Below, one piece after another: positions 1-15,788 of a stretch of DNA of 64,000 nt (position 1 is the first letter of the stretch; each line of letters begins with the position of its first letter). A program made the translations under genes and the position numbers. Below the pieces are notes generated by a model. That model was not told the origin of the DNA. It saw nothing but the letters and a program-made list of their open reading frames with translations, and searched no databases. The DNA is from a virus: the IMG/VR virus record IMGVR_UViG_3300042889_001272, positions 171,562 to 235,561 of that record. One strand, 5' to 3'.

Positions 1-432
1 GTTGTCCTCACTGCCAAATTCCAGCATAATATCAGGATTCAAACTTAATGCATATTCAATTAATTGCTTTGCATAATGTAATTGGTTATCTTTAATACGA
101 CTAACATCAATATGTATTAAATCAAATCTAGAGGCAATATCAGCCGATATAGTTTTCATACAACGAATGATTGCATCTTCAATGGACAGTCCTCGATCTA
201 AATCACTGAAGTAAGGCCCGCAATGATCTCTGCACAACAGCAAGTTTGGATTTTTATATTGTTTTACTTGTTCTGCTAATTCAGCAGTAGTACAAACATA
301 TCCTGTAACATAGTCAACTTGATTGCGGCTGGCAATAATCATCAATGGATAATTATTATCTCTTGTATGTTTAGCAAGGATTGATATAATTTCCTTGCTC
401 ATTGGTCCGAAGCCCAATTTAAATTGTTTCAT
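1..432 (-). CDS. GatZ/KbaZ-like aldolase-subunit family protein, 3' end beyond the window
   Basis: The reading frame opens at an ATG (432-430) and stays open for 144 codons to the window edge, so the C-terminus is missing. The N-terminal part resembles the tagatose-bisphosphate aldolase non-catalytic subunit family (GatZ/KbaZ): a GFGPMSKEI start, MIIASRNQVDYVTGYV at about residues 32-47 (family pattern: IEATSNQVNQ then GGYTG), and LLLCRDHCGPYFSD at about 65-78 (family pattern: LGGDHLGP). GatZ/KbaZ proteins are TIM-barrel partners of class II aldolases in sugar-phosphate metabolism. It overlaps the AroE-like gene by 14 nt and is the most distal gene visible in the glycan operon. The family is inferred from motifs only, and the catalytic role in this phage is unknown. 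Confidence 0.6.
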   Translation of the reverse strand, partial: MKQFKLGFGPMSKEIISILAKHTRDNNYPLMIIASRNQVDYVTGYVCTTAELAEQVKQYKNPNLLLCRDHCGPYFSDLDRGLSIEDAIIRCMKTISADIASRFDLIHIDVSRIKDNQLHYAKQLIEYALSLNPDIMLEFGSEDN

Positions 433-1159
433 ATTGTCTGCTTTCAATTTCGTTGTAGAGTTCTTCGCTGGGTTTTATCCCAGTGTAAATCTCAAATTGT
501 TTTAAGAATTGACTGCGATAAAACTCACGCCCAGATACATATTTAATATTATAATTCTGACATTGTTGTTTAAACTCGTTGTTCTTAATGGCCAAGTCGA
601 TTACCAACCTTGTGTCGGGGGGTATTTGTCCCAACATATATGGACTTTCATCAGTGCTTGTTCCCAATGCTGTACAGTTAATTATGATGTTTGCAGTCTT
701 ATACCGTTCATTCCATGTACTTAGATTCCTGGCACAAACATTTAAGTTTCCGTAATGTTCTTCTTCTAGATATTTAACGAACATACTGCCTATGGCTCCT
801 GCACCCAAAATAGTTATTTTATCTGTTTTATTGATATGCTTGCAAACATGTTCAACGCCTGCTAGATCGGCATTGTATCCATGAGTCTGTCCTTTGTTTA
901 TCTTAATAGTATTACAACTATTGTAAAGTTGTACATAGGGATGTTTTTTATTCAAATATGATATAATGGACTGCTTAAAAGGCATACTAACACTGATTCC
1001 AGCGACGTCGTCTTCAATGGCCTGCGTTATTGCTTTTTCAATATCAGTACAGGCCAATGGTTCATATGTTGCATCTATATTATAGTGTTTAAAGAATTCT
1101 GTGTAAAAATATTGCCCAGTCTTTCCTGGAAATTTACTTAGACTTATAAATTTTTTCAT
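419..1159 (-). CDS. Shikimate dehydrogenase-like (AroE fold) protein
   Basis: A 246-residue protein with the AroE two-domain layout. The substrate domain carries GISVSMPFKQ (family: G.NVT.PfK) at about residue 54, an NT pair near 83-84 and GYNADLAG (family: G.NTD..G) at about 94. It is followed by a Rossmann nucleotide site, ITILGAGAIGS, near 115-125. The usual N-terminal SxSPxxHN signature is replaced by FPGKTGQYFYTEFF, so the substrate may not be shikimate. It overlaps the NTF2-like gene upstream by 4 nt (ATGA type) and the GatZ-like gene downstream by 14 nt. An NAD(P)-dependent oxidation or reduction of a sugar-like acid is a reasonable guess. Fold assignment is fairly secure; substrate is not known. 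Confidence 0.72.
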   Translation of the reverse strand: MKKFISLSKFPGKTGQYFYTEFFKHYNIDATYEPLACTDIEKAITQAIEDDVAGISVSMPFKQSIISYLNKKHPYVQLYNSCNTIKINKGQTHGYNADLAGVEHVCKHINKTDKITILGAGAIGSMFVKYLEEEHYGNLNVCARNLSTWNERYKTANIIINCTALGTSTDESPYMLGQIPPDTRLVIDLAIKNNEFKQQCQNYNIKYVSGREFYRSQFLKQFEIYTGIKPSEELYNEIESRQYETI

Positions 1160-1494
1160 CGTTTGTACGCTCTTATTTCTCTTATTTTATTATCTTGATC
1201 AAAGTCTATAACATCTATTACTGGAATTGCAACTTTATTATCTAATATAACTTTGATCTCTGCTATAACAGTATTATGGCCCATGGCAATTTTATCAATT
1301 TCTATTCGAATATTCCCCAACTGTGAAAACAATGTTTGATTAAATGCCAATACATTTTCTCTGCCGATCATTTGTCCGTCCCAGTCTGTTAATATTACAT
1401 TTTCAGCAAACATTGTTTCCAAGCTGGTCAAATCCTTTTCACTGAATGCTTTTAAGTAAAGCATGGCAATCTGACTCTGTGTGGCTTTACCCAC
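1156..1494 (-). CDS. SnoaL/NTF2-like small protein
   Basis: A 112-residue protein with the pattern of the NTF2-like/SnoaL cone fold: an N-terminal helix (YLKAFSEKDLTSLETMF), then AENVILTDWDG and a C-terminal run of beta strands (VIDVIDFDQDNKIREIRAYK). Family members are small isomerases, cyclases or ligand-binding subunits. The start is GTG at 1494. It is supported by an 8-nt overlap with the stop of the upstream gene (GTGGGTAA), the same overlap style used repeatedly in this operon, and by GGAG upstream. The reaction is unknown; from context it probably acts on a sugar intermediate. Confidence 0.65.
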   Translation of the reverse strand: MGKATQSQIAMLYLKAFSEKDLTSLETMFAENVILTDWDGQMIGRENVLAFNQTLFSQLGNIRIEIDKIAMGHNTVIAEIKVILDNKVAIPVIDVIDFDQDNKIREIRAYKR

Positions 1495-3019
1495 GATCTA
1501 ACTCCGCAAATAGTTTAATACCCAAGTACCATAGGAATATATCAAATGGAGCAGTGTGCAATGGGCTCATGTTCCAAAAGATTATCGGTATTAATTGTTG
1601 TACTTTATTATAATCTAAATTGTTATCTACGATGTATTTCTTCAACCGCTGTTGATATACGGTGATATGATCGACATTCGGAATACTCAATGTTACACTG
1701 CTGTCTTCGATTTCTATGTTAAAATTATGATTCTTAATGTTGGCATAGTTGATGATCAACCCCCCGGCCATTTTAGCCAAGTCGTAGTATATATCACCGT
1801 ACTCGACTAGGCCTGCGAACTCATGTCGCCAGTCAATGATCTTAAACTCTCCGCTGTCACTGATGACAATGTTATCAAACTGTAAATCACCGTGCAGGAA
1901 TCCCGGGCGGGTAACTTGTGCAAAATATTCCCAGTCTATCTTATTTAAATAATAACTATGGTCTCGGACTTCTATGCCGTCGATGTTGGTCACTGGTTTT
2001 AAACCAGGATACTTTTCTAAAAACTTGTTGATACGTGACAGTGATTTTGTTTTATAGAACTCAATGCTGGCATCATGTATATCAGCATCTATGTCTCGCC
2101 ACACATTTTTTTCCAGCCAATTAAGCAATTCATTGAATGCCACTGGATTGTTGAACTCGTATAATGTCTTGCCTGGAAAGAAATCATAGGCCATATAATT
2201 GCCGCTGTGCGTACAGTTGGCGGGGAAGACATGTGGATTAGCCAATACTTTGTCATACTTCTTTTTGGCAACTGTGTTATCTAGCCACCATTTAACTACA
2301 CGATTGTTACAAATATATGTTACTTCGTCTTTTTTTGTAAAGTCGAATTTTTGGCTTTTACTTAATTCGGTTTGATATATTGTTGGACTGCCAAAGTCTA
2401 ACCATGTATTAAGATTCGCAGTATCACTGCCTAGTTTAATAATACCAATAAACTCATTACTGTGACTTTGTTCCAAGTCTGCAAAAAATGTTGTATAGTC
2501 ATTTATATACATCAGCCCTGTAAATGCCGACCAAGTTGCAGGAGTAGTTTCTTTAAACTTGATCTCTTGTATATGAAAACTATTGTTTTTGTTAAACATT
2601 GTATAAAGATGCGTGTCTTGTTCAGGCACTGACTTAACAAAATAACAATCCTTGTTTCTAACTAAATCTACCACTGTTTGGTCAAAGTAAGTGTCACAGG
2701 GTACATACCAAAAAGGTGCATCTATTACCTCTTTACATTGTAGCAATGTGTATCCGGTTCCTGATTTAGCACTGGTCCAGTCGTTGATGTGTAAAAATTC
2801 TATATTTCTGTCACTATATGCTACATTACAAAAATCTATAATTTGTTCTTTTAGATGTCCAACAGGTATAATAAACTTCGTATCCTTGGGAAAGTTATCT
2901 ATGATATGTCCTAAAACTGGTTTATCTTTGTAAGGCAATAATGCCTTATTAAGATTCTTAGTATAATTGCCCATTCTACTGCCAAGCCCGGCTGTAGGAA
3001 TAACAACAGTATTACTCAT
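1487..3019 (-). CDS. Fused sugar nucleotidyltransferase and APH/choline-kinase-like phosphotransferase
   Basis: A two-domain fusion of about 510 residues. The N-terminal half has the NTP-transferase signature VVIPTAGLGSRMG with a KALLPY..KPVL continuation, as in enzymes that make NDP-sugars or CDP-choline. The C-terminal half has the aminoglycoside/choline kinase catalytic loop LHGDLQFDNIV and the metal site IIDWR. One chain could therefore phosphorylate a small molecule and then activate it with a nucleotide, a logic resembling the separate LicA and LicC enzymes. The chosen ATG (3019) puts the signature right at the N-terminus and gives an 8-nt overlap (ATGAGTAA) with the cupin gene. A longer form starting at 3040 is possible. 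Substrate unknown. Confidence 0.8.
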   Translation of the reverse strand: MSNTVVIPTAGLGSRMGNYTKNLNKALLPYKDKPVLGHIIDNFPKDTKFIIPVGHLKEQIIDFCNVAYSDRNIEFLHINDWTSAKSGTGYTLLQCKEVIDAPFWYVPCDTYFDQTVVDLVRNKDCYFVKSVPEQDTHLYTMFNKNNSFHIQEIKFKETTPATWSAFTGLMYINDYTTFFADLEQSHSNEFIGIIKLGSDTANLNTWLDFGSPTIYQTELSKSQKFDFTKKDEVTYICNNRVVKWWLDNTVAKKKYDKVLANPHVFPANCTHSGNYMAYDFFPGKTLYEFNNPVAFNELLNWLEKNVWRDIDADIHDASIEFYKTKSLSRINKFLEKYPGLKPVTNIDGIEVRDHSYYLNKIDWEYFAQVTRPGFLHGDLQFDNIVISDSGEFKIIDWRHEFAGLVEYGDIYYDLAKMAGGLIINYANIKNHNFNIEIEDSSVTLSIPNVDHITVYQQRLKKYIVDNNLDYNKVQQLIPIIFWNMSPLHTAPFDIFLWYLGIKLFAELDRG

Positions 3020-3461
3020 GTTCGTAGCTGATTCTACCATGTGTTCTACCTGCGTCGTCTTGTAATCGAATTACATCATCTAATTCTGTTGTGCTGGTTT
3101 CCATGAATTCTAAATCAGTGTCAGCGATTACTCTGTGTACATAGCCTGGTTGTACATTGAATACAACACCGGCTTTAAGTTCTATACGTTCGAATGTATA
3201 TTCGTAGGCTTCTACTTGCCTAGACGTCATGCCTTGTTCTAAAAACTTGGCAATGTCCAGTGGTTCTCGACTGCGATGTAACATGCCTGTGCCGCTGAGA
3301 ACGTAGTTAGTTTCTATCTTATATTCGTGTACTTGTAAGCTGGTTCTATTGCCCGCTTTGAATAAAATACGTTTACTGGCATACGGAGTTTGGCTTCCAT
3401 CTGCAATCCAAAGCTCGTAGCCCCAGTGTTTAGTTACTTTTTTAATTTTCATCATGCCCAT
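3012..3461 (-). CDS. Cupin-domain protein (mannose-6-phosphate isomerase type II-like)
   Basis: A 149-residue single cupin. It shows the KxWGxE motif (KHWGYELWIA) at the N-terminus, typical of the cupin part of type II phosphomannose isomerases. Metal-ligand-type residues follow in SLQVHEYKIETNYVLSGTG (H, E and G positions of cupin motif 1), and a second motif lies around QPGYVHRV. Such proteins isomerise or epimerise sugar phosphates, or bind sugars. Possible starts lie at 3461, 3455 and 3452; 3455 would give an ATGA overlap with the SGNH gene. It sits directly before the nucleotidyltransferase-kinase fusion, consistent with supply of an activated sugar. Confidence 0.75.
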   Translation of the reverse strand: MGMMKIKKVTKHWGYELWIADGSQTPYASKRILFKAGNRTSLQVHEYKIETNYVLSGTGMLHRSREPLDIAKFLEQGMTSRQVEAYEYTFERIELKAGVVFNVQPGYVHRVIADTDLEFMETSTTELDDVIRLQDDAGRTHGRISYEHE

Positions 3462-4249
3462 CCATTTTCTTTTAACTTTGTTAATACTATGTTATATGCT
3501 TCATTATGCCCGTCGGGTCCAGTATGCCACGTTTTAATTTCATCTGGATATTTGACACTTAATTCTCCCCAGGACAATCTAACTAAATTTTCTTCATCCA
3601 TGTACTTAGCATATTCTTCTGGCTCTTGTGTCAGCATCAAATGTTTAATATTATGTTTCTTTAACAGTTGATGTGCCATGGTCATTACCCCAATACTTTG
3701 TAATCGATTTATCCTAGGGTCGTGTATAGTTGTGGCAAAGTCGTACAGTGTTTTCATTCTTTCTTTTGGTTCATTTTGAAATCTAGCATAATAGCCAGAA
3801 TACTTGTCATCTTTTCTAAATGTTTCCCAAAAGTCAATTACACCCATGTAATTTTCAGTGAACATTCCGCCCTTGTACAAAGGATCATCTTGCATGGGAT
3901 GCTTGTCTAAAACTTGATGATATGTTTCTGCTCTATAAGGAGGATATTGATGATAATTAACATCGACATTTGTTATTTCATGTCCGAATTTGTAGTCCAT
4001 GGGAAACCAATCAACCCTGTCATAACTAGTATGACTCACTAATACAATGTCATCTTCTGATGCAATATTTTTTACTGCATATTCTGCCTGCAAGTAAATG
4101 CTTAGATTCGTACTAGATCCTTTGGCAAGATTAAACAACTCTCTTTCAAGGTTGTTTGCCAATAATACTCCATATGGTTCTGTATGCAAATCTATGCACC
4201 CAATACCAATATTAAAACTATCACCACATATTATTAATTTTTTAGACAT
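3452..4249 (-). CDS. SGNH/GDSL-like hydrolase (copy 1)
   Basis: About 265 residues. The N-terminus KKLIICGDSFNIG carries the block I GDS(F) nucleophile motif, and HTGPDGHNEAYN near the C-terminus carries the block V D-x-x-H pair in the form DGHN. This is the layout of SGNH hydrolases, which deacylate or acylate lipids and glycans. The ATG at 4249 is preferred over 4276 because it puts GDSF in the usual place and gives an 8-nt overlap (ATGTCTAA) with the upstream gene. It is one of two SGNH genes in this operon, separated by a glycosyltransferase-like gene. The likely role is editing O-acyl groups on a glycan. Confidence 0.7.
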   Translation of the reverse strand: MSKKLIICGDSFNIGIGCIDLHTEPYGVLLANNLERELFNLAKGSSTNLSIYLQAEYAVKNIASEDDIVLVSHTSYDRVDWFPMDYKFGHEITNVDVNYHQYPPYRAETYHQVLDKHPMQDDPLYKGGMFTENYMGVIDFWETFRKDDKYSGYYARFQNEPKERMKTLYDFATTIHDPRINRLQSIGVMTMAHQLLKKHNIKHLMLTQEPEEYAKYMDEENLVRLSWGELSVKYPDEIKTWHTGPDGHNEAYNIVLTKLKENGWA

Positions 4250-5039
4250 CTTTATATTTCTCTTCCCACCATTCATTTTGTTTATTTCTCAAATCCTGAA
4301 AACTATGTTCATGTTTTATCATACCATTTTCAAACATATCATTTATATTATCTCTTAATATCACACAATCCATGTATCTGTGAAGTAAGTTATCTATAGT
4401 CTTGCCGCGCTCTATTAAATATCTTGCAAATAAACTATGAATATCATATTTGTTCGAAATAGTTTCGTTGTAATAGTATACATAATAATCAAAAAACTCA
4501 GACAGTATTTTAAACATTTCCCAATCTACCATTAGACACGTATCATTAGTGGAAAAATAATCGCTGTTTGGATCAGTGCTTAATCCGCCGATGCTGTGCA
4601 TGTGGTCAGGAATAGGTAGCTGATTATTAAAATTTTTAATAGGCTGTAGATAACGAATATATAAATCTGGGCGCCATAATAATATCTTATTGTACTGTCT
4701 TACATGTTGCATTGACAACAAAACTTGATAAGCATATTTCCATTTAAATGCCATGCCGATTGTAGGGTGATATGCAAATTCAGGATTTTGTTTTAATTGT
4801 TGTTCCGTAAACATCATTTTATTATCTACTAATAAGTTTATTGATGAAAAGTTTACACTACTTCTATTAATAGTATTTGCTATAATATCAGTAGTACACT
4901 CTGTATGCATATCAGTTGACTGCGGATTATAAATTTTATTTTCAGTGATTAAATAATAATCAGCATCAATTATCCAACTGCTGGACGCTTCGACTAGATG
5001 TCGCATCACTCCAGAAATTATAATCGCAGTGTTAGACAT
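4242..5039 (-). CDS. Putative glycosyltransferase-like protein (SG-x-xR family)
   Basis: A 265-residue protein beginning TAIIISGVMRHL, related in pattern to the SGQ-x-R N-termini of the two genes at 5948 and 6846. It also shares an acidic stretch around IDADYYLITENK and an arginine-rich middle (YNKILLWRPDLYIRY). These are features of phage-encoded glycosyltransferase-like proteins of the GT-A kind, but no DxD motif can be fixed with certainty. It overlaps both neighbours by 8 nt (ATGTCTAA). Function is inferred from family resemblance and context. Confidence 0.5.
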   Translation of the reverse strand: MSNTAIIISGVMRHLVEASSSWIIDADYYLITENKIYNPQSTDMHTECTTDIIANTINRSSVNFSSINLLVDNKMMFTEQQLKQNPEFAYHPTIGMAFKWKYAYQVLLSMQHVRQYNKILLWRPDLYIRYLQPIKNFNNQLPIPDHMHSIGGLSTDPNSDYFSTNDTCLMVDWEMFKILSEFFDYYVYYYNETISNKYDIHSLFARYLIERGKTIDNLLHRYMDCVILRDNINDMFENGMIKHEHSFQDLRNKQNEWWEEKYKDV

Positions 5040-5943
5040 ATAACTTATGTTGCTTAATATATCTTACTAATTCATTAGCCCATGCTTCATGACCTTCCGG
5101 GCTAGGATGCCAGCCAGTCAAAGGAGGATTGACATTATTAACAGGATCTTCTATGTAACTCTTAAAAGTATTATTGGAGTGATCTTTTTTATAAAATCTA
5201 ACAGGATCTATACTATCCCATAGTGCAGTATAATCATTGACGTGCAGTTCGCGAAGCATTGGATTTTTAGATTGTTGATATTTATGACCACCAATACTGC
5301 CTTTTAACTTTTTAACTTCGTCACTGACTTTTAAATCCTGCCAATCATTAGGATTGGCATTGGGCGTTTGATAGAAAGCATTAAAGCACATCCATTTAAT
5401 ATTATTAACTCTGCAAAAGTTCTGCAACTGCAAAACATTTAATACATATCTAGGAATATATTCTTCGGCATGCCATAGATATGCAACATATAATTCCCAG
5501 AATTTTTCCTGGGCAACTGCATCAAAGTGCGGGACCTGCGGCCACAATCTAAATAGATGCGATAACCCATCGTCTTTATACCAAAAGCTATTGCGTTCAG
5601 GACTTGTCCAGCCAATTATAACAAACAACTTATCAGTTGGAATATTATTTGCTATATATTTTTGAGAAATATAGTTAATAGTTCTACGTAGAATAGTACC
5701 GTTGTCATCGGCTGGCCAACTGAGATTAGTCACTGGAACTTTTAAAAGTTTTGCCAAATGTGTGGGGAAAATTTTAGGCGTTCTATAAGCATCATTTTCT
5801 TCTACAAAATCATAATGCCCCGGGTGTGTATCATCTGGATATCTTTTTGCAATATTAGGATCGACGATTTCACAGCCAAATGTCCAGCTGTCACCGTCAC
5901 ATATAATTTCTGGTTCTATGTTGACATCGATGATGTCAACCAT
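5032..5943 (-). CDS. SGNH/GDSL-like hydrolase (copy 2)
   Basis: About 303 residues from the ATG at 5943. Block I is EIICDGDSWTFGCE near the N-terminus. Block V is WHPSPEGHEAWANEL near the C-terminus, carrying a usable active-site His. The protein is longer than copy 1 and differs in the middle, so the two are probably not recent duplicates. A longer ATG start at 5988 overlaps the upstream gene by 41 nt. A TTG at about 5964 follows an AGGAGG, but that string also encodes residues of the upstream protein. Probable O-acyl hydrolase or transferase acting on the operon product. Confidence 0.68.
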   Translation of the reverse strand: MVDIIDVNIEPEIICDGDSWTFGCEIVDPNIAKRYPDDTHPGHYDFVEENDAYRTPKIFPTHLAKLLKVPVTNLSWPADDNGTILRRTINYISQKYIANNIPTDKLFVIIGWTSPERNSFWYKDDGLSHLFRLWPQVPHFDAVAQEKFWELYVAYLWHAEEYIPRYVLNVLQLQNFCRVNNIKWMCFNAFYQTPNANPNDWQDLKVSDEVKKLKGSIGGHKYQQSKNPMLRELHVNDYTALWDSIDPVRFYKKDHSNNTFKSYIEDPVNNVNPPLTGWHPSPEGHEAWANELVRYIKQHKLYV

Positions 5944-5947
5944 TCGT

Positions 5948-6859
5948 TTAGATGTACCACTCAAACCATTTCCTCCTAATTTCTTCATAGTTATAAATTG
6001 AATTCAATTTTGCTTCCACTGCGGTGCTTCGCATCACTGCATATTCAAATGGATTTACGCAGTTTGGGTGTATGGATAATTCTGTCATGTAATTATATAA
6101 TAAACAACCGGGTCCTAGCCATAATACTTTATCCAAGTTTAAACCACATTGATTCTTAAATTGATATTCCATGGGGCGGGAGATTTTATGAAAAGAATAT
6201 AGATCTCCCATTAAATCCATGGTAGGACTATCACCATAAAATAACACATCATCAAAATTATTAGAATTAAATTCTGAGGCAAATTTGCTTACGGGTGTAG
6301 CTGTATAACAAACGCCTGGCCAAACTCGTTGTAAAGGAAATCGATGACTAGGGTTGTAAATGACATCCAATCTTGCCTTAATAACTAAGTCATATTGAAA
6401 ACTTTGTTTCAATTCATAGTCTCTTTTAAGCATTAAACTTCTTGCAAAGCTATAGAACATTGGATCCCAGGCACGTTTGAATTTTTCTTTATCAAATTCT
6501 TGTTGTATAAAACCCTTTGGCTTATATGTTTCTATAATGGCATCTCGATCATTGTGAATCACATCAGTATAAACAGTGATATCTGTTTTGGGCAAGCGCC
6601 ATGTATTGGTATCCCATGTATGAATAAAGTAATCAGTTTCTACATCCAAGCCATTTTCTGGGTGCGGATATTCGTGTTCAAAGAAACGTTTAATGTTGGC
6701 AACACTTTCCTGCCAATAACGTGCTTGACCACTGAAGCAAACTGCAATTCTAAATTTTCTTTTAGGTTCCGCTGATAGCGGCTCTGGTATTTCAACCTGA
6801 ATAGGCGCACTACGCAAATTGCCAGTAAGTGAGTCTATTTCAACATTAAATAAGCTCAT
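5948..6859 (-). CDS. Putative glycosyltransferase, SGQ-x-R family (copy A)
   Basis: About 303 residues. After an N-terminal leader of about 35 residues comes RIAVCFSGQARYWQES, then a conserved DYFIHTWDTN and, later, YDLVIKARLDVIY. The neighbouring gene shows the same three landmarks (VAICISGQPRTWEK, IDIFCHVWDYN, YDLCIKIRYDMFF), so the two are paralogues. The R/I-x-R-x-D landmark is typical of phage and capsule glycosyltransferase-like families. The ATG at 6859 follows AGGTGG and overlaps the upstream gene by 14 nt; the longer start at 6865 would be GTG. Confidence 0.62.
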   Translation of the reverse strand: MSLFNVEIDSLTGNLRSAPIQVEIPEPLSAEPKRKFRIAVCFSGQARYWQESVANIKRFFEHEYPHPENGLDVETDYFIHTWDTNTWRLPKTDITVYTDVIHNDRDAIIETYKPKGFIQQEFDKEKFKRAWDPMFYSFARSLMLKRDYELKQSFQYDLVIKARLDVIYNPSHRFPLQRVWPGVCYTATPVSKFASEFNSNNFDDVLFYGDSPTMDLMGDLYSFHKISRPMEYQFKNQCGLNLDKVLWLGPGCLLYNYMTELSIHPNCVNPFEYAVMRSTAVEAKLNSIYNYEEIRRKWFEWYI

Positions 6860-7694
6860 GTCCACCTAATTCTCCTTCTAATCCTGATTTTATTTTTCTA
6901 TCTAAGTAGTCCTGACTCCTGAATATTTTAGGATCAACTGACAATGGGGATATTTCTATGTTTAACATCTTTGCATAAAAATACAATGCGTGTTCTGGGC
7001 CCACTAGATTATTACTGTTAAAACTTTTCTTTCCTATAATCGGCAACCATCTATAAAATTCACAGATGCGGTTAAATGTAACAGTGTCAGCAAACCAAAA
7101 TACGTCGCCCAATCTATGAAAAGGAAATTGTTCAGGATCTTTTCTAGTATGACAAGTATAAAAAGTATTAACTTCTGGATACACTAGATCATATCTTACA
7201 AAATGATCAATTTGATAATCATCAAAAAACATGTCGTATCTTATCTTGATGCATAAATCATAATGAAAATCATTTTCGAACTCGTGAATTTTCTTTAAGT
7301 GAGCGGCTCTCATCACGCTATAGAATTGGCCGGCGGCCCAATCTAATTTAGTTTCACCGTGCTCATTGAGATGTACAGCATTTTGTTCGCGCACATCTTT
7401 GATTTTATTTTTGTTAGAAAATTCATCTTCAAATACACACGCTTTGGGTTTTATTATATCTACAAATCTCTTCTTTTCATCATCAGATATTTTGTCTCCG
7501 GGCACGGTATTATAATCCCAGCCTTCGTGCATTAACAAACGATGGGGCGGCGAATTATAATCCCATACATGACAAAATATGTCTATGTCATCGACTTCGT
7601 ATGATTGTTTGATTTTATCAATTAGTTTAAACCACGTATGATAACATTTTTCCCATGTTCGGGGTTGTCCGCTGATACAAATAGCCACTTTCAT
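6846..7694 (-). CDS. Putative glycosyltransferase, SGQ-x-R family (copy B)
   Basis: A 282-residue protein starting MKVAICISGQPRTWEKC, followed by FCHVWDYN and YDLCIKIRYDMFFDDY. These three landmarks are shared in order with the 5948-6859 protein and point to a common glycosyltransferase-like family. A GPEHALYFY motif near residue 230 resembles the late acidic patch of such enzymes. It overlaps the radical SAM gene by 4 nt (ATGA). The acceptor and donor are unknown. Confidence 0.62.
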   Translation of the reverse strand: MKVAICISGQPRTWEKCYHTWFKLIDKIKQSYEVDDIDIFCHVWDYNSPPHRLLMHEGWDYNTVPGDKISDDEKKRFVDIIKPKACVFEDEFSNKNKIKDVREQNAVHLNEHGETKLDWAAGQFYSVMRAAHLKKIHEFENDFHYDLCIKIRYDMFFDDYQIDHFVRYDLVYPEVNTFYTCHTRKDPEQFPFHRLGDVFWFADTVTFNRICEFYRWLPIIGKKSFNSNNLVGPEHALYFYAKMLNIEISPLSVDPKIFRSQDYLDRKIKSGLEGELGGHELI

Positions 7695-9091
7695 TTAGCA
7701 TTTTTCCATTTAGTATAGTAAGGTTCAAACTCAGGAAATGTAGCCAAAAAGTTTGTTCCTCTGCGTTTGTCGTGCTCATCCACAAACGCAACTAGATCCT
7801 TTTGATATACTGTAACTTCCTCTGGATCTTTTTGATTCATTGTTAATTCATATATACGTTTAAATTTTTCAGCTTCCCATTTGAAAAATCCTTGATTAGC
7901 ACTTCCATACCATTCACCGTTTTCTAAATTACGATACATCATTGTTACTTGATTGAAAATATATTCTTTTGCCCAACTTTCTGGCATAACATGAAAGATG
8001 CTTTGGTGCGCTGGGTGCCTTAGAAACGGTGCATCTAAAATTAACGGAGCATGAACATTGTTCCAGCCACCGAACTCGTTTTTAATATCTAATACATCTT
8101 GTAAGAATAACGAATATGTAGGTACACTAAGAACATTGTAGGTACTCATGATAGTAATAGTACACTCTGGGATTTCTTTTAATACCCTGCGGATGTTACT
8201 TAACCAAAGTTCATAATTCATACCATCACGAATATATTCTGCAGCCTTGCCATGAGCATCACAGCTTGTAAAGATTTTAAACTTTTTAACTTTCTTTTCT
8301 TCGCAGATAATTTTAACTTTTTCAAGGAATCTGTCAAATAACTGTGGTGGCACACACAAATTGCTGTTAATGCTCAGGTGTATATCTGGATTAGGATTTT
8401 CAATGACATAGTCAAGAACTTTAAAAGTATCTTTACTTAGTAAAGGTTCTCCGCCAGTTATCCTAAAGTGCTGAAGTTCTTTATAAACAGTGGGCCACCA
8501 TTTCCAGAATGCTTCCACATAAGGATTGTATTGATTGTGCGGAATAGGCATTTGATCAATTTGTTTAAGGCCAGCAATATCATTGAAACGGCCGTGTGTT
8601 GGATATGGGCCATGTTGTTTAACTTCTTCCATCCACAGACTACTGACCTGTGGACTACAATAGCTACATTTAAAATTACAGACGTTACTGAAACTGACTT
8701 CCAGATAACTAGGAACAACGTCACTGTCCCATGGCAAATTGCGAACTTCGTCAAAGTGAGGCTTTGCCCATACATCATAGCTCTTATAGATTCTATCGCT
8801 GAGTGCATCTGGTGCGCTGTCCTCTACTTTCCAGCAATAGTCACATTCTTTAGGACGGGCACCTTCCAACATTAACTTACGCTGTTCTTTTTTAAACTGT
8901 GTATTATGTAATGCACTGGGATTAGCGGCTAGTTCGTCTAAAGGAATTTTGTGCGTAGTGGGATGGTGACAACTGTGGTTGTGACCTGTTTGCAAATGCA
9001 GAGTTACCTGTTTCCACTTGGCAATACAAAAACTAGGACTAACGTCGTTAATCTTTTTTTGAAATGCAATGATATCTTTATTGTGTTCCAT
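7691..9091 (-). CDS. Radical SAM protein with Cys-rich (twitch-type) N-terminal segment
   Basis: A 466-residue protein with the radical SAM motif C-x3-C-x2-C at Cys138, Cys142 and Cys145 (CNFKCSYC), the glycine motif FRITGGEPLL near residue 213, and further barrel landmarks. Before the barrel lie additional cysteines (Cys22, Cys41, and the Cys83/Cys86 pair in ECDYC), consistent with an auxiliary iron-sulphur twitch site. Radical SAM twitch proteins are recurrent in phages of aquatic bacteria, but their substrates are not established. Lying inside a glycosyltransferase operon, it could modify a sugar (epimerisation, dehydration, C-C chemistry) or a protein acceptor. Family assignment is secure; function is open. 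Confidence 0.88.
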   Translation of the reverse strand: MEHNKDIIAFQKKINDVSPSFCIAKWKQVTLHLQTGHNHSCHHPTTHKIPLDELAANPSALHNTQFKKEQRKLMLEGARPKECDYCWKVEDSAPDALSDRIYKSYDVWAKPHFDEVRNLPWDSDVVPSYLEVSFSNVCNFKCSYCSPQVSSLWMEEVKQHGPYPTHGRFNDIAGLKQIDQMPIPHNQYNPYVEAFWKWWPTVYKELQHFRITGGEPLLSKDTFKVLDYVIENPNPDIHLSINSNLCVPPQLFDRFLEKVKIICEEKKVKKFKIFTSCDAHGKAAEYIRDGMNYELWLSNIRRVLKEIPECTITIMSTYNVLSVPTYSLFLQDVLDIKNEFGGWNNVHAPLILDAPFLRHPAHQSIFHVMPESWAKEYIFNQVTMMYRNLENGEWYGSANQGFFKWEAEKFKRIYELTMNQKDPEEVTVYQKDLVAFVDEHDKRRGTNFLATFPEFEPYYTKWKNAK

Positions 9092-9092
9092 A

Positions 9093-10064
9093 TTAATTTA
9101 TCGAGTTATCTACTTGATTTTCTTTGACCTGGGCACCAAGTCTGGGTGGATTAATCCAGCTTTCCTTGAACATTTTACTTCCGTTATAGTCAAGTTCTGC
9201 AATCTCTAATCCTAGGTTTGTTCTCAATGATTCTCCTAGTTTGAATATTTCGTCTTGTAGTTTTTTCTTGTCATATGTCCAGCCACTGGCTAAACATTTT
9301 TCAGACTCTCCGGCAAACTGTGGACGGACAGCATTTTTCCAAAAATCATCATGCCATTCAAAATCTCTCACCAATGTGAAATCAAAGCCATCTCTGTCAA
9401 TATTAGACATATAGCAACCTAATCTAGTTCCGTACATGGCCCATAGTCCATTGTATACATCAGCACCTACACTAGCCCATACCAGCAAACGTTTATAATT
9501 TCTATCGTGTACTCGTTGTTTGAGTTGCCTAGGATCCACGGTTACTCCGCCTTCTAATGCTAGTTTAACACCTTCACGGAAGCCTGCGCGATATGCTTGG
9601 TAAGCACTGGCATTATTAAAAACGTCACTGTATATGTTATTCATTTGATGATAGTAAATGTCCCAGCAAAAGTCAACTTGTGCTTTGGGATCTTCTGCGG
9701 CTTCGTGTGTACGCATTTGTTCTACCACATGTTTGGGCCAAAGTTTAATGCCGCCATTGCCATAAACTAAACCGTTGACAACATTCTTGCCTGCCCATGA
9801 TATAACGTCATGTCGACTAATTTTCGACATATCCAATTCAATGCTTAAAAAGTCATCACGTACAATGTTATCTGCATCCACAGTAATAAATCTATCTGTT
9901 TCAGCGGCAGCGGCAGCGGCTTTGTGCGCGGCATCAAATCCTTTTACTCCATGCACACGCTTGGCCCATGGAGCTTTGTTACATAAGTCAGAATAGTTCT
10001 TATCGGCGTTGGGTTCGTCGTAGCTTAAAAATATAATATCAAAACTGGTAATCGGTGCTAGCAT
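9093..10064 (-). CDS. Putative GT-A glycosyltransferase
   Basis: About 323 residues from the ATG at 10064. This start is preferred over 10079 because AAGGAAG stands just upstream. The protein opens FDIIFLSYDEPNAD, followed by RFITVDADNIV with a DxD-type DAD motif near residue 75, and YGNGGIKLW near residue 110. This arrangement is typical of GT-A enzymes that bind a metal-nucleotide sugar. The end of the upstream gene overlaps its start by 26 nt, and the radical SAM gene follows after 1 nt. Donor sugar and acceptor are not known. Confidence 0.65.
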   Translation of the reverse strand: MLAPITSFDIIFLSYDEPNADKNYSDLCNKAPWAKRVHGVKGFDAAHKAAAAAAETDRFITVDADNIVRDDFLSIELDMSKISRHDVISWAGKNVVNGLVYGNGGIKLWPKHVVEQMRTHEAAEDPKAQVDFCWDIYYHQMNNIYSDVFNNASAYQAYRAGFREGVKLALEGGVTVDPRQLKQRVHDRNYKRLLVWASVGADVYNGLWAMYGTRLGCYMSNIDRDGFDFTLVRDFEWHDDFWKNAVRPQFAGESEKCLASGWTYDKKKLQDEIFKLGESLRTNLGLEIAELDYNGSKMFKESWINPPRLGAQVKENQVDNSIN

Positions 10065-11028
10065 CTTCTTCCTTTGCATGTAAATGAAAATAGTTACATA
10101 CTAATTTAACTTCTTTTTCACTTGTTAATTTTATCTCAAAATTATTATAGTTGTTAAGTTGGTTACTACTTAACTTGATAGAACCCAGCATCATTGTCGG
10201 GTCATGTTTTTCACAAATGTATAATTCTATGTCTTCATTTAATCTAAATGTGTTGATGTCTTGTATTGTACTTTGTAATTTTAACACATTACCCGTCTGT
10301 TTGTAAAGCAAATTTGGAAGATAATCTAAATTATTTTCTGCAACTAAGTTTTCATTTGATCGGTAGTCGTATGATATAATTTGGTTGTCGTTGTAATATA
10401 AAAATCCAATGTTTTTCAATCCCAACACATCGTCTGGCAACCATCTACACTTAAAACTAATATCGTGTTTTTCAAATAATTCTCTAGTAGACACAGTGAA
10501 TTTTCCAAACAGCTTGGATCTTTCATTTTTATCAATACAATATATTTCTATGTAATCGGGCAATTCTTCCAAGTGTTTTTCTGAAGTTTTTTCCAATAAC
10601 ATATTCAATTTAAAAATATTATAGTCAAAAATTAGCTGTATTTTTTTAGTTACTACATCACAGTGTAAGTGTATAAAGGACCGTTCTGAATTTGTGGCGA
10701 AAATAAAGTCAAATTCCCCTTTTCTGCGTTGCTTGTTATGTGTTAATTCAAATTCATTGGTTGTTTGATTTTTTTTAACTATGAGCTTAGACAGTGATAA
10801 TTTGTTTTCGAATAATTTTTTTGTTAATGTAGAAGCAGTTATAACAGCTATCGAATTTCTTTTCTCTGATGGAACAATTTCCATGGGTGATGCAACAACA
10901 GGCAAACCTGTAAGTCTATTATATTCGACATACACTTTTTGTTCGTTATTTGTATTTCTACTTTTAAGAACTCTTTTTTGTATGTCAAATTCTTCGACTT
11001 GATCGTCATCACTTACACAGTTGCTCAT
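10039..11028 (-). CDS. Unknown protein in the glycan operon
   Basis: 329 residues, not recognised. It is rich in Asn, Lys and short beta-type stretches. It seems to contain repeated blocks with similar wording: KKIQLIFDYNIFKLN, GFLYYNDNQIISYDY and EVKLVCNYFHLH, each following a clause ending in LxG.F/ikLs. This suggests two or three tandem beta-sandwich-like modules. There is no signal peptide, membrane segment or clear catalytic motif. It overlaps the next upstream gene by 4 nt, so it is translated within the operon. It could be a binding or scaffolding partner of the glycosyltransferases. Confidence 0.55.
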   Translation of the reverse strand: MSNCVSDDDQVEEFDIQKRVLKSRNTNNEQKVYVEYNRLTGLPVVASPMEIVPSEKRNSIAVITASTLTKKLFENKLSLSKLIVKKNQTTNEFELTHNKQRRKGEFDFIFATNSERSFIHLHCDVVTKKIQLIFDYNIFKLNMLLEKTSEKHLEELPDYIEIYCIDKNERSKLFGKFTVSTRELFEKHDISFKCRWLPDDVLGLKNIGFLYYNDNQIISYDYRSNENLVAENNLDYLPNLLYKQTGNVLKLQSTIQDINTFRLNEDIELYICEKHDPTMMLGSIKLSSNQLNNYNNFEIKLTSEKEVKLVCNYFHLHAKEEDASTDYQF

Positions 11029-11843
11029 TTATTTTTAAAATTTTCTAATATTTCATCAGTGAGCCATCCCTTGGATTCATATTTAACCAAACCATGTTGT
11101 ACAAAATTTTCAATTTTAAGAGTACCTTTATCATTAACCCAGTAAGTTAAAAATTCACTCCAACGCTTGGTCCAATTGTTATTAATATAATTATTTTCTT
11201 GTTTTGACAGATCTATGCAATGCATAAAATCAAAGGTTGATATCTTCTTTTCAGTTATAGACTGCAATAAGGATAGCACCCAACTGGGCCATATATATTT
11301 GGGAAACGGTGGCATTTCATGTTCTTTGTCTGCAAAGAAATTTATATAATTGTCTTGATCATAACTGGAACATAACACACTGGCCAGTCCTAGAATGTAA
11401 TCACAGCCCTTGTCTTTGTTGAAAAATATTGCATTTGGAATACTGCTGACTCCAAAATTTTTAAATTCGATGCTGGCAGTACTGTACATCACTGGATTTA
11501 CAATTTCATTATTAAACAAATAGCGATGTTTTGGAAGAACAATGGGATCTAAACTTCGCAGATTTTCCCATATTCCTAGATCAAAATAAGTCAACAATTG
11601 ATCGGGCAGTAAGCCAATAGTCTTGGTATACGGACTCATTAACATTGATTTGAAATAGCATAATGTTGGATTCGTTTCATCTAAAAAAATGACATTGTCC
11701 GCTTCTATAAATTTTGCATCCGTACTATTAACAATGACACTGACAGGTCTAATAGAATCTATTTTTTTAATGCTTGTTATTAATAGATTTATTTCTACAG
11801 AGTTTTCATCAGTTCCATTAACTATTAAATAACCTTCACTCAT
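11025..11843 (-). CDS. Putative glycosyltransferase-like protein
   Basis: 272 residues. The N-terminus YLIVNGTDENSVEINLLITSIKK and the following EADNVIFLDETNP resemble the nucleotide-binding half of GT-A-like proteins. The layout parallels the neighbouring GT at 11836 (short beta strand, helix, strand, acidic patch, then Trp-rich helices such as WPSWVLSLL). No certain DxD is visible. It overlaps the upstream gene by 8 nt and the downstream gene by 4 nt. Function is inferred mainly from position. Confidence 0.45.
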   Translation of the reverse strand: MSEGYLIVNGTDENSVEINLLITSIKKIDSIRPVSVIVNSTDAKFIEADNVIFLDETNPTLCYFKSMLMSPYTKTIGLLPDQLLTYFDLGIWENLRSLDPIVLPKHRYLFNNEIVNPVMYSTASIEFKNFGVSSIPNAIFFNKDKGCDYILGLASVLCSSYDQDNYINFFADKEHEMPPFPKYIWPSWVLSLLQSITEKKISTFDFMHCIDLSKQENNYINNNWTKRWSEFLTYWVNDKGTLKIENFVQHGLVKYESKGWLTDEILENFKNK

Positions 11844-12732
11844 AGATTAACTCCTTGAGTTTAGTGTAGTGTCTTAAAATTGCCATTTTATTCATCAAGT
11901 GTATGTTTTCATTTATTATTCTACTGCAAATATTTTTCCATAACTCTTTGGGATCTGGACATAATAACACGTAGTCATTGAGAGATTTAAACTCTACAAT
12001 ATCATCAATTTGCTCACTGAAGCGCATTACTTTTCCTGGCAGTACTGCCACTGTATTTCCCACTGTTTGGCCATTTAGTATATGTGCGGCAATACTGGCA
12101 GCATAGTCTGTTCTGAATAACACTCCGGGAAACTTGTATAACCACTTGTAATAATGATAGTTTTCTTTAACATGTTCCCAAACACCAAAGAACAAACGAG
12201 CAACTTCACTGTCATTTCTCCAATACACAACTGTGCTCCACCACATGTCTATGCCATCTGGATGAAGTTTTTGTTCCCAGATTCTGGGCTTATAATTGCG
12301 AACGCTGACAGCGTCTTTATACATTGCAAGTTCGTAGTCTGTGTCGAACACTGCATCTAAACTATCATTGCCCACAATGTAGTCGACATCTATCATCAAT
12401 GTTTGTCGGTAAGGGCTTTTTTGAAAAATGCTGTGTTTATTTTTATTATTGAACTGTGTGCTGAATTCTGTCCAAGGACTGTCCCTGTGCATTCTTGTAT
12501 TACGTTCGTGCTGAATATCTTCCACAATGATATGATCAAAGGTATAAGATAATTGCTCAGGTGTGAGTTCCGCAGTTAACGCATTAAGAGTGTTTAAATC
12601 TGTGAGCAAAGTGACATGATTGTTTTTCATGTGCAGTTTTACATTTGCTGCCGCTATTATTGCCAATCTTTCATAGGCTATTTTGCCGTTGTTATACGCA
12701 ATCAGCAAAACACCTTTATCAAATTTAGACAT
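11836..12732 (-). CDS. GT-A type glycosyltransferase-like protein
   Basis: 298 residues. It opens KGVLLIAYNNGKIAYERLA, then SPYRQTLMIDVDYIVGND with the metal-binding DxD-type motif (DVD) near residue 117, and then WWSTVVYWRND, the pattern of nucleotide-diphospho-sugar transferases that start from a preformed acceptor. The 8-nt overlap with the upstream gene (ATGTCTAA) supports the start. It is the second gene of the operon. Probable sugar transferase; acceptor unknown. Confidence 0.65.
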   Translation of the reverse strand: MSKFDKGVLLIAYNNGKIAYERLAIIAAANVKLHMKNNHVTLLTDLNTLNALTAELTPEQLSYTFDHIIVEDIQHERNTRMHRDSPWTEFSTQFNNKNKHSIFQKSPYRQTLMIDVDYIVGNDSLDAVFDTDYELAMYKDAVSVRNYKPRIWEQKLHPDGIDMWWSTVVYWRNDSEVARLFFGVWEHVKENYHYYKWLYKFPGVLFRTDYAASIAAHILNGQTVGNTVAVLPGKVMRFSEQIDDIVEFKSLNDYVLLCPDPKELWKNICSRIINENIHLMNKMAILRHYTKLKELIYE

Positions 12733-13078
12733 CTAATCCTACCAATCCTTTAGTGTCTCTTTTCTTTTTTAGTTTTTCGTAGTCGTTGTAATATTCGTTC
12801 AGTGCTTCTGTGTATGCACTGAACAATTTTGTATGAAAGTCTTGTAATGCTGTTATTAGTATTGGGTTTTCGTTGTCATCTATAAAAACAAATTGTTCGA
12901 CTTTTTTGTCTAACAAGTGCTGAATAAAATTGATTAGTTCCAGTGTGGCTGTGAACATTGAATTCGAATAGCCAATGGTTAACACGGTATTCATTCGCTG
13001 TTTAAGGTTTAGTTTTTGATTGTTTAAAGTTAAGCGATAGTTACTGAACTCTAACGCTTCTCTGAGTTTGTCATCCAT
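12725..13078 (-). CDS. Unknown small protein, first gene of the glycan operon
   Basis: 117 residues, mostly helical, with a basic C-terminus (YNDYEKLKKKRDTKGL). No family recognised. GGAG lies 6 nt before the ATG. It is the promoter-proximal gene of the operon, 29 nt downstream of a TATAAATA element, and overlaps the next gene by 8 nt. Small leading genes of this kind are often regulators or assembly factors, but nothing in the sequence proves this. Confidence 0.6.
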   Translation of the reverse strand: MDDKLREALEFSNYRLTLNNQKLNLKQRMNTVLTIGYSNSMFTATLELINFIQHLLDKKVEQFVFIDDNENPILITALQDFHTKLFSAYTEALNEYYNDYEKLKKKRDTKGLVGLDV

Positions 13079-13091
13079 TTTGACTCCATTA

Positions 13092-13103
13092 TATACTAGT
13101 ATA
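13092..13103. promoter_or_regulatory. Perfect 12-bp palindrome in the operon leader
   Basis: TATACTAGTATA is its own reverse complement. It lies between the late promoter core and the first ATG of the glycan operon, overlapping the expected transcription start, so it is a candidate operator. It could also be a chance AT-rich palindrome. Confidence 0.35.
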
Positions 13104-13106
13104 ATG

Positions 13107-13114
13107 TATTTATA
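13107..13114 (-). promoter_or_regulatory. T4-late-type promoter element before the glycan operon
   Basis: The minus strand reads TATAAATA, an exact match to the T4 late promoter core recognised by gp55-type sigma factors; this window encodes a gp55. A transcript would begin about 22 nt before the first ATG (13078) and include the GGAG ribosome site. Confidence 0.6.
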
Positions 13115-13132: not shown

Positions 13133-14212
13133 TTAAGGAGATGTAGCTATTCCAGAAAAGGCAGGCTGGCCAATTGAAAATGTTGCACTACCGCTGGATT
13201 TTGTAGTAGCTTTATTACTTTCCACATACAAGGTGTGAGTTCCATTTACTTCTGTTGAATCTGCACTATGTAACACAACTCGCAACACTAACTGAACTGG
13301 ACCGGTTGTATAGCTTCCGTTTGTTGCTACAATCGAACCATAAACTCGTATACTTCTTCTACTGCCGCCATATCCGTAGCCATATCCGTAGCCATTGCCG
13401 TAGCCATACCCGCCGCCATTGCCGTAGCCATACCCGCCGCCATTGCCATAGCCATACCCGCCGCCATTGCCATAGCCATATCCATATCCATATCCATATC
13501 CATAGCCATATCCATACCCGTATCCGCCGCCGCCGGCGCTGTTACAAGTTAGTAATAACTGCTCTGTAGAGTTCAAGTCTCTAAAGCCTTTATTTTCGCT
13601 GATAATATTTGCAGTAGTTGAAACTGTATTAGTTAATTTCAAACTTACAACTCCGAATCTAGCATATACTGATTGCCATAACCCAGACGCCCCGGATCCA
13701 GTGCCTGTTAAATTTAAATTAATGCTACTATCACTGTTGAAGAAATATCTAGCTTTATCATAATTTTGAAAATTTAAAGTCACAGTGTATGTTAAGTTAG
13801 AATTCCATGGTGTGTTTCTTGGGATGTTTCCCAAAGTAGCCAATGCTCGTTGTCCAATGGCTGATAAATTATGTCTTGTGTCAACATCAGCTGACACTGT
13901 TTCTATATCATTCCAGATGCTGGCAGTGACTTTTTGTCCGATTATAACACGATCTAGTTCGTAGACACTGCCTGTGTGTTCAGCGCCTAAATTAATACGG
14001 TCGATCATTTCATTGACCAGTGCTGCCGTAATTTTTGTTCCGGTGGTGGCTAAACTAGCGGATGTGTTTCCCCATCCGTAACCCTGTCTAATTTTATCAG
14101 CTAATACTGTTTTAGGTATACTACTGGGATAAATGTCGGCAAAAACTTTGTTGGTATTGTTAACCAACACATTATAGTCACTGGCTGTGATTAATTGCCC
14201 TTTTGATGCCAA
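13133..14212 (-). CDS. Tail-associated structural protein with Gly-Tyr repeat tract
   Basis: 359 residues. The N-terminal 120 residues (MASKGQLITASDYNVLVNN...) and two later helix-rich clauses resemble T4-like virion proteins that attach to the baseplate. The centre has a low-complexity Gly/Tyr/Asn tract (about residues 226-282). A beta-rich C-terminal domain follows, ending about 77 residues after the tract. It follows the 14214 gene almost without a gap in the tail operon. A fibre, or an adhesin with a flexible glycine linker, is the likely role. Exact T4 counterpart not assigned. Confidence 0.6.
   Translation of the reverse strand: MASKGQLITASDYNVLVNNTNKVFADIYPSSIPKTVLADKIRQGYGWGNTSASLATTGTKITAALVNEMIDRINLGAEHTGSVYELDRVIIGQKVTASIWNDIETVSADVDTRHNLSAIGQRALATLGNIPRNTPWNSNLTYTVTLNFQNYDKARYFFNSDSSINLNLTGTGSGASGLWQSVYARFGVVSLKLTNTVSTTANIISENKGFRDLNSTEQLLLTCNSAGGGGYGYGYGYGYGYGYGYGYGNGGGYGYGNGGGYGYGNGGGYGYGNGYGYGYGYGGSRRSIRVYGSIVATNGSYTTGPVQLVLRVVLHSADSTEVNGTHTLYVESNKATTKSSGSATFSIGQPAFSGIATSP
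13365..13535 (-). repeat. Gly-Tyr minisatellite inside a tail protein gene
   Basis: A tract built of 6-bp (Gly-Tyr) and 24-bp units; the 24-bp unit encodes GGYGYGNG and occurs three to four times in succession. Copies differ at third codon positions (GTAG/ATAG on the plus strand), so the array is not freshly expanded, but its length could vary by slippage. Confidence 0.85.
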
Positions 14213-14213
14213 T

Positions 14214-15152
14214 TTATCTCACTCCAACAGCTACTTCTACTGTGCTAATACCATTACTGATTTTATCGTTTAATGCTCTGCCGATAATGTTTATTGGATT
14301 ATATTCATTTGTTGCCATGCCAACGCCTTCGACTTCGCTGGAAACAATGCGCTGACCTTTACGTACTGTGCCTTTTACTAAACAAGGTACACGACCTTTA
14401 AGTGCCACAGGATAAGCATTTTCTTGCATTTTCATTTTGCTGTTTAACAAGAAGCCAGGGGCAGTTGATATAATACCAAATACTTCTTCGTCGTAGGCTT
14501 TAATTGTTTTAGTAATTTCCATTTCGCCGCCAAGACGAACAATGTTACCAGGAACAAGTTCGACATCACTTCTATATATTTCTGCCATGTCGGCAAATTC
14601 TGCTTCCATTGCACGACCGCGTATTTTAAAGTTACCGTATTCAGAACCAGCATCTTGGCCGTCATTCATATTGATGCCGCAGCCAATAGTTGGAAATCTA
14701 TTTTGCAAACCAGTGTCTGCATGTGGAGTATATGTACCAGCATCACTGCTGATAATAGCAACGATTGTGCCGGTTGTTGCATTCAATGAAGCTCCGACTT
14801 GAATTTTAATAGCACGATGAAAAATTCCTGAAATATCTTTAATTAAAGCTGTGCTGAATCCGTCCACCGGACCGCCAATTAAATCAGTGCCGCCAATTGG
14901 ATTCCATTTTACACCGTCATACACGCTGACAACTCGTGAATTACTGTTCCACCAAAATTGACCAGTAATTGGATTTGATGGAGCAACTGGGTTACTGAAG
15001 TGCTCTAGCATCTGAACTAGGTTTTCTGCCATTATTTCGCCGTAAGCGGAATAATTTTTACCCAGCAACTTAATAGGAGTAGTTGTATCTACTGTTCTAT
15101 CTGCAACGATTGTTAGTCGTGTGCCGTCTGTTTTTGTAACATCATATGCCAT
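14214..15152 (-). CDS. Virion structural (tail fibre/baseplate-associated) protein
   Basis: 312 residues. The start MAYDVTKTDGTRLTIV, the PITGQFWWNSNSRVVSVYDG clause near residue 62, and the C-terminal region (PGNIVRLGGEMEITK then VPCLVKGTVRKGQ) match a structural protein type common in marine T4-like phages and usually annotated as a fibre or virion protein. A late-type promoter (GATAAATA) and AAGGAA lie upstream. It is followed by the Gly-Tyr protein gene with no gap. Exact place in the virion unknown. Confidence 0.6.
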   Translation of the reverse strand: MAYDVTKTDGTRLTIVADRTVDTTTPIKLLGKNYSAYGEIMAENLVQMLEHFSNPVAPSNPITGQFWWNSNSRVVSVYDGVKWNPIGGTDLIGGPVDGFSTALIKDISGIFHRAIKIQVGASLNATTGTIVAIISSDAGTYTPHADTGLQNRFPTIGCGINMNDGQDAGSEYGNFKIRGRAMEAEFADMAEIYRSDVELVPGNIVRLGGEMEITKTIKAYDEEVFGIISTAPGFLLNSKMKMQENAYPVALKGRVPCLVKGTVRKGQRIVSSEVEGVGMATNEYNPINIIGRALNDKISNGISTVEVAVGVR

Positions 15153-15763: not shown

Positions 15764-15780
15764 TTTATTTCCTGTATACT

Positions 15781-15788
15781 GTATTTAA
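15781..15788 (-). promoter_or_regulatory. Weak late-type promoter element
   Basis: TTAAATAC on the minus strand, about 18 nt before the ATG at 15763. It matches the TAAATA core shared by the other late elements in this window but lacks the leading TA. Confidence 0.3.

Follow-up and report, generated by a model that had tools for sequence, protein, structure and literature searches.

The window analysed here, 64,000 nucleotides of viral DNA, comprises bases 171,562-235,561 of the 235,561-base IMG/VR record IMGVR_UViG_3300042889_001272 (hereafter G000). Its first 13,078 bases hold 16 minus-strand open reading frames (ORFs), nearly all overlapping their neighbors by a few bases (Table 1), that include a glycosyltransferase cassette lying next to tail-fibre genes. 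The overlapping genes are present as a preliminary description of the window had reported, but they are only part of an array of about 43 genes that the window cuts: co-directional genes extend another 27 kb leftward in the record, and the whole array occupies 39.8 kb (G000:144,871-184,639), its far end at 144,871 being the meeting point with a convergent gene. The largest intergenic gap within the array is about 25 nt, counting two missed reading frames. Altogether the array contains 13 radical S-adenosylmethionine (radical-SAM) genes, four SGNH-like genes and four FLS paralogues, together with nitroreductase and carbamoyltransferase genes; further members, judged by eye only, look like methyltransferases, an Asp-hydroxylase-type oxygenase and a short-chain dehydrogenase. 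The baseplate wedge protein of this phage is 37-43% identical to those of jumbo myophages such as Atu_ph07 (Agrobacterium), Phosso (Sinorhizobium) and PA5oct (Pseudomonas).

Table 1. Genes and elements of the array start and the adjoining tail region (window positions unless a locus is named)
Feature	Position	Strand	Evidence or remark
GatZ/KbaZ-like class II aldolase-fold protein	1..432 (cut by the window; whole gene L006:18927-19994)	-	PF08013, E 2e-6
AroE-like dehydrogenase	419..1159	-	PF08501, E 1e-11; NCBIfam 9e-28, under cut-off
SnoaL_2/NTF2-like enzyme	1156..1494	-	PF12680, E 4e-13
Nucleotidyltransferase-kinase (NTP-transferase+APH) fusion	1487..3040	-	Pfam/NCBIfam
Cupin	3012..3461	-	PF07883, E 4.5e-6, just under cut-off; counterpart in cellular operons
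Second SGNH-like protein	3452..4276	-	Profile and conservation comparison
gt265, distant GTb member	4242..5039	-	Profile gathers 78 proteins, equal to the 78 of gt282
SGNH-like protein (DUF6071)	5032..5988	-	PF19547, E 2e-13
gt305, GTb family	5948..6865	-	GTb family member
gt282, GTb family	6846..7694	-	PHROG 13607
RS13, N-terminal-twitch radical-SAM enzyme	7691..9091	-	NF033640, E 9e-101
FLS_328, probable GT-A glycosyltransferase	9093..10079	-	Invariant DxD; weak Foldseek
Three FLS_328 paralogues	L006:15035-15757, 15717-16718, 16690-17433		Further along the array
X, variable cassette protein	10039..11028	-	Not assignable to an enzyme family; relatives range from 86 to 459 aa
GTa2, second GTa family member	11025..11843	-	GTa1 and GTa2 profiles each gather 110 proteins; family in common
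GTa1, predicted GT8-type glycosyltransferase	11836..12732	-	Invariant DxD; AlphaFold; Foldseek
H117, small conserved protein, first cassette gene	12725..13078	-	In 36/36 qualifying T191-anchored loci
TATAAATA, late-type promoter element	13107..13114	-	Some 30 nt ahead of the first cassette ORF
FIB, tail-fibre/tip protein with Tyr-Gly repeat (YGYGYG/GGGYGYGN)	13133..14212	-	Family HMM finds PA5oct EST35_0123, E 5e-53
G2, tail-fibre-type protein, Peptidase_G2/IMC-like C-terminal part	14214..15152	-	PF11962 weak, E 0.003; PHROG tail fibre, 4.5e-7
T191, tail-associated structural protein (independent anchor)	15188..15763	-	PHROG 11259, E 8e-50

The operon itself had been recognised in the preliminary description, but the fixed glycosyltransferase cassette at the array start and its coupling to a tail-fibre gene had been overlooked. 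IMG/VR loci were fetched with four queries (radical SAM, nucleotidyltransferase-kinase, FLS and T191) and scored with array-gene profiles; each scan covered the best 80 loci, and the counts describe the closest relatives. The order T191-G2-FIB-H117-GTa-GTa-X-FLS-(radical SAM) recurs across three scans from different starting genes, and the same-order cassette occurs in more than 100 other environmental phage contigs and across many aquatic metagenomes. H117 and GTa were present in all 36 T191-anchored loci that have FIB and at least 1.6 kb of downstream sequence, and the FLS-anchored scan gave H117, GTa and FLS in order in 59 of 60 loci. The gene after FLS varies, being a radical-SAM gene in 25 of these loci and a second FLS in 30, and minimal loci consist of the cassette alone without radical SAM. 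Thus, the minimal cassette excludes the radical-SAM gene, and the radical-SAM, SGNH and sugar genes constitute variable cargo.

The rarity claimed in the preliminary description does not hold: relatives in IMG/VR number hundreds, and marine clusters (PMC7029224) as well as a T4-like genome with 12 radical-SAM genes (PMC5332604) have been published. A tblastn search of 50,697 phage records with RS13, FLS_328 and GTa1 gave no match, and thus no cultured phage was seen to carry the cassette; L006 rS10 had three weak matches only in the same records.

The three genes preceding the cassette encode virion proteins or candidates for them. T191 is 41-44% identical to its Phosso and Atu_ph07 homologues, and a hidden Markov model (HMM) of G2 finds its PA5oct homologue with an E-value of 2e-75. 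The PA5oct homologues of T191, G2 and FIB (EST35_0123) are all annotated as ESI-MS/MS (electrospray ionization tandem mass spectrometry) in the PA5oct record. A tyrosine-rich stretch is present in 59 of 187 FIB proteins, and most of the highest-ranking stretches are Tyr/Gly repeats. FIB is presumed to be the acceptor or a partner of the cassette. A strict need of FIB for the cassette was ruled out by PA5oct, where FIB occurs without the cassette and hence does not depend on it.

GTa1 combines the GT-A fold and the DxD metal-binding motif of GT8-type enzymes. Its D115 and D117 are invariant across 28 sequences, and its AlphaFold model (mean confidence score, pLDDT, 94.7) has 106 Foldseek matches in the PDB at E ≤ 0.001, with glycogenin first (E 7e-7), then UGGT and LgtC; these matches have TM-scores of about 0.4 and identities of 12-15%. 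On this modelled fold GTa1 is a GT8-type glycosyltransferase, and sugar transfer is predicted. The assignment of GTa2 as a putative glycosyltransferase is supported by its family membership. FLS_328 also has an invariant DxD (D68/D70, 32 sequences) and a confident model (pLDDT 91), although Foldseek returned only weak GT-A matches (E about 3e-3, none at E ≤ 0.001); FLS is probably a GT-A enzyme. A PDB profile search for the GTb family as glycosyltransferases gave no match. Thus, of at least five glycosyltransferase-like proteins claimed previously, GTa1 stands by fold, GTa2 by family and FLS_328 by its DxD and weak GT-A match, but no test supports gt282, gt305 and gt265.

Mean hydropathy over 19 residues stays below 1.6 in every array protein, so that no membrane helix is predicted, and hence neither a flippase nor a polymerase nor a membrane lipid-carrier transferase is seen. 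By hydropathy, the array lacks the three components that would mark O-antigen or lipopolysaccharide (LPS) assembly.

Late expression had been deduced from a T4-late-type promoter. This claim is supported for the present phage, which has TATAAATA at 13,114 and a poor sigma70 match before the cassette (9/12), but not as a general rule. The window contains four copies of TATAAATA where 7.6 would be expected; the element is not over-represented, so its count is not evidence. The placement of TAAATA is: far above background, it lies some 20 nt ahead of virion genes in this phage group (T191 in 90/117 relatives versus internal GTa genes in 11/272). This placement makes the 13,114 element plausible as a late promoter, in this phage only. 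In the 136 distinct regions preceding H117, a sigma70 site alone occurs in 49, TAAATA alone in 34 and the two together in 14, which leaves 39 without either. A near-consensus sigma70 promoter thus precedes the first cassette gene in 63/136 relatives, which rules out 'late only' as a general property; structural genes hardly ever have a sigma70 site. The cassette usually has a promoter of its own, not always a late one.

The count of two SGNH proteins and one radical-SAM protein in the preliminary description is right for the part in the window but not for the array, with its four and 13. The CxxxCxxC motif is intact in 13/13 radical-SAM genes, most of which have a twitch/SPASM-type auxiliary domain, and the paralogues are mutually about 20-33% identical. 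Genome-wide, nine domains score higher than the curated N_Twi_rSAM (NF033640) cut-off, and all seven cluster cysteines of RS13 are invariant in 26 relatives. Two radical-SAM enzymes appear to be split into core and SPASM/twitch genes (L006:1526-2562 and L006:11282-12236), and another pair of SPASM-like and radical-SAM genes lies on the opposite strand at L007:10953-11973 (G000 about 142,952-143,972). In the SGNH-like protein of the DUF6071 family, Ser34 and His294 are invariant in 22 relatives; a conserved Asn block was not found in it.

The nucleotidyltransferase-kinase fusion, cupin, radical-SAM, NTF2-like, AroE-like and GatZ/KbaZ-like assignments were all confirmed by Pfam/NCBIfam, which supports the view of the array as a cluster of glycan-type enzymes that brings along a nucleotide-sugar-type block. 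Both active-site signatures of the nucleotidyltransferase-kinase are intact in the alignment (GxGSRMGNYTKNxNK and HGDLQFDN/IDWR). The AroE-like protein scores 97 bits against an equivalog cut-off of 306 for shikimate dehydrogenase AroE, and is AroE-like only; the KbaZ-like protein scores 24 bits against 707 for GatZ/KbaZ, with which it has only a fold family in common, and keeps the R-D-H, H-x-D, KEHN and HY motifs. In the nucleotidyltransferase-kinase scan, the cupin, nucleotidyltransferase-kinase, SnoaL-like, AroE-like, KbaZ-like and carbamoyltransferase genes are grouped in most of 35 loci. By analogy with pathways of the 3-deoxy-D-manno-octulosonic acid (Kdo) type, we infer that this block may act on a ketose or sugar acid, which would undergo aldol extension, lose a phosphate and be activated with a nucleotide.

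The block is not the phage speciality that had been supposed. Searching genomes with the KbaZ-like alignment yielded 249 relatives; in DPANN archaea, Candidate Phyla Radiation (CPR) bacteria, Omnitrophota and Pelagibacteraceae (SAR11) the gene often lies beside AroE-like, HAD-phosphatase-like, nucleotidyltransferase-kinase and cupin genes (examples are L299, L304, L306, L308 and L318); two other phage loci also keep the HAD gene. These cellular operons adjoin flippase-like and glycosyltransferase-like genes, in neighborhoods resembling those of surface glycans. The presence of the operon in DPANN, CPR and SAR11 rules out the sugar pathway as a rare phage-specific trait.

Several other loci and flanking genes were noted. 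A 2,991-residue tail protein is encoded upstream of T191 (window 15805-24780), and proteins of about 3,300 aa occupy the same spot in relatives. One T191-G2 phage (L226:11953-20433) has a different small fibre-like protein (311 aa) and carries an alternative island whose genes look by eye nitroreductase-like, desaturase-like, hydroxylase-like and methyltransferase-like. A second phage lineage (L025:3-21034, L029:1-20760) has a different long fibre-like protein and, directly after it, another glycosyltransferase/sugar cluster with, by eye, beta4GalT-like proteins carrying an added lectin-like part, epimerase-like, RmlC-like and thiamine pyrophosphate (TPP)-enzyme-like genes and the same radical-SAM protein. 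In Phosso (L125:16263-17183) and Atu_ph07 (L128:17084-17974), a post-fibre protein ends in CHxSCHASCHxSRSRR; this CHxSCHxSCH tail hardly differs between the two phages, despite an overall protein identity of only 42%, and in Phosso the protein adjoins four radical-SAM genes and a cupin, with a similar set in Atu_ph07. This CH-repeat protein looks like a substrate of the type of ribosomally synthesized and post-translationally modified peptides (RiPPs). Past the array end, tandem proteins carry an SxGxDS-type PP-loop motif (L007:218-1378 and L007:1430-2593).

We consider that the island has about an even chance of being a system that decorates the tail fibre, its glycosyltransferase core being conserved and its sugar-tailoring cargo variable. 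Fibre decoration is favored by the cassette's constant link to a virion gene, by the soluble GT8-type enzymes and by the lack of membrane lipid-carrier or export genes; glycogenin is an enzyme that glycosylates a protein tyrosine. Under this model, soluble glycosyltransferases would move sugars onto the neighboring fibre protein in the cytoplasm, ahead of virion assembly, with H117 and X possibly serving as adaptors or chaperones. The cargo would build and tailor the sugar donor. An unusual ketose or sugar acid might be synthesised and activated by the KbaZ-like aldolase together with the AroE-like reductase, SnoaL-like protein, cupin and nucleotidyltransferase-kinase; radical-SAM enzymes and the carbamoyltransferase could modify it, and SGNH enzymes might edit acyl groups. 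Differences in cargo among related phages would then give different glycans, and with them altered adsorption or escape from host defences.

Several points weigh against fibre decoration. Most FIB proteins are without Y/G repeats, PA5oct and its relatives carry FIB without the cassette, and gt282, gt305 and gt265 are without significant Pfam, NCBIfam or PDB match. The locus counts, moreover, come from best-scoring relatives. The array may instead remodel the host envelope: an O-chain or core oligosaccharide altered in infection would keep other phages, or progeny once released, from binding infected cells or debris; adjacency to the fibre would then reflect host-range genes that travel together. 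GT8 enzymes such as LgtC, a Foldseek match of GTa1, act on lipooligosaccharide without a membrane helix, so soluble enzymes would also suit this explanation. The sigma70 promoter in 63/136 relatives suggests pre-late expression and also fits early envelope remodelling, and in DPANN, CPR and SAR11 the sugar block sits in surface-glycan-like neighborhoods near flippase-like and glycosyltransferase-like genes. Envelope modification is, moreover, how the host recognition clusters (HRCs) of pelagimyophages have been interpreted in print (PMC7029224), and the LPS clusters of cyanophages may be interpreted likewise (PMC3037559). Nevertheless, the array shows no membrane or lipid-carrier enzyme by hydropathy, its coupling to one virion gene is near-invariant across differently anchored scans, and in this phage the promoter is of the late type, so that envelope remodelling appears possible but rather unlikely.

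The number of radical-SAM genes, most with twitch/SPASM-type auxiliary domains, could also mean that these enzymes cross-link or modify fibre residues such as the Tyr-Gly repeats in a RiPP-like manner, the sugars being secondary, and the Phosso/Atu_ph07 radical-SAM operon at the same place does encode the protein with the conserved CHxSCHxSCH tail. However, Y/G-rich FIB proteins occur without a nearby radical-SAM gene (L144, L145, L149-L151), L011 and L044 are rich in radical-SAM genes but have FIB without repeats, and the minimal cassette has no radical-SAM gene. Tyrosine-rich FIB proteins thus exist both with and without radical-SAM genes nearby, which makes peptide modification less likely as the main purpose, and we regard it as improbable; as a general rule, a Tyr-Gly repeat dedicated to radical-SAM enzymes is ruled out, since each occurs without the other. 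Some T-even phages glucosylate their DNA, a precedent that, with the PP-loop-like proteins and a thymidylate-synthase-like gene near the far end, would suit modification of phage DNA or small molecules rather than a glycan. That the cassette is linked to a fibre gene, not to replication genes, and that family scans of the array found no base-modifying or DNA-binding families make this highly improbable. The fullest version of fibre decoration, in which the phage glycosylates its own tail fibre with a self-contained system, glycogenin-like enzymes adding sugar to Tyr-Gly tyrosines while a phage pathway and up to 13 radical-SAM enzymes build a sugar not yet described, the system being common among uncultured aquatic phages but missing from the cultured phage records searched, is distinctly unlikely to be correct in all its parts.

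The literature searched on phage virion glycosylation and jumbo-phage radical-SAM clusters contained no direct description of such a system; what is new, as far as searched, is that the cassette has a fixed order and is coupled to the fibre, that GTa is assigned to GT8, that the cassette promoters are split between types and that cells carry the sugar operon. These findings point to a nucleotide-sugar-type operon, as yet uncharacterised, that is common to DPANN archaea, CPR bacteria, SAR11 and phages. They also give a functional context to a large radical-SAM family, N_Twi_rSAM (NF033640), to which nine domains of this genome belong and whose name states no reaction. If the fibre is indeed glycosylated, host recognition of abundant aquatic phages would be read differently from sequence.

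Each known system resembles the array in part. GTa1 is like glycogenin and other GT8 enzymes in fold and DxD, with the low identity and TM-score given above. In chloroviruses, soluble enzymes encoded by the virus attach glycans to the capsid protein in the cytoplasm, as shown experimentally (PMC7019647), a precedent for virion-protein glycosylation by virus enzymes; the likeness is one of description, and the system differs in that the virus is eukaryotic and the acceptor a capsid protein. The cyanophages P-SSM2, S-SM2 and S-SSM7 have large sugar (LPS) gene clusters, several with carbamoyltransferase genes as here, but these lie near hli03/phoH and are not ordered after a fibre gene (PMC3037559). 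The T4-like environmental genome TARA_ERS488813_N000010 likewise concentrates many radical-SAM genes, 12 in all, which the passage on them treats as iron-sulphur auxiliary metabolism and does not link to a glycosyltransferase cassette or fibre (PMC5332604). The closest parallel in layout is provided by the HRCs of pelagimyophages and cyanomyophages, which carry glycosyltransferases and radical-SAM cassettes next to fibres, between VrlC and gp14, and are thought to act in host recognition (PMC7029224). Here too, a hypervariable island with tail fibres, glycosyltransferases and radical-SAM cassettes lies inside the structural region. Unlike in HRCs, an ordered core cassette is bound to one fibre family, in jumbo phages related to PA5oct and Atu_ph07, and is accompanied by 13 radical-SAM genes and a sugar block in common with DPANN, CPR and SAR11; what had been a hypervariable stretch of uncultured phage genomes, described only loosely, can thereby be read as a cassette of defined order whose substrate, the neighboring fibre, can be put to the test.

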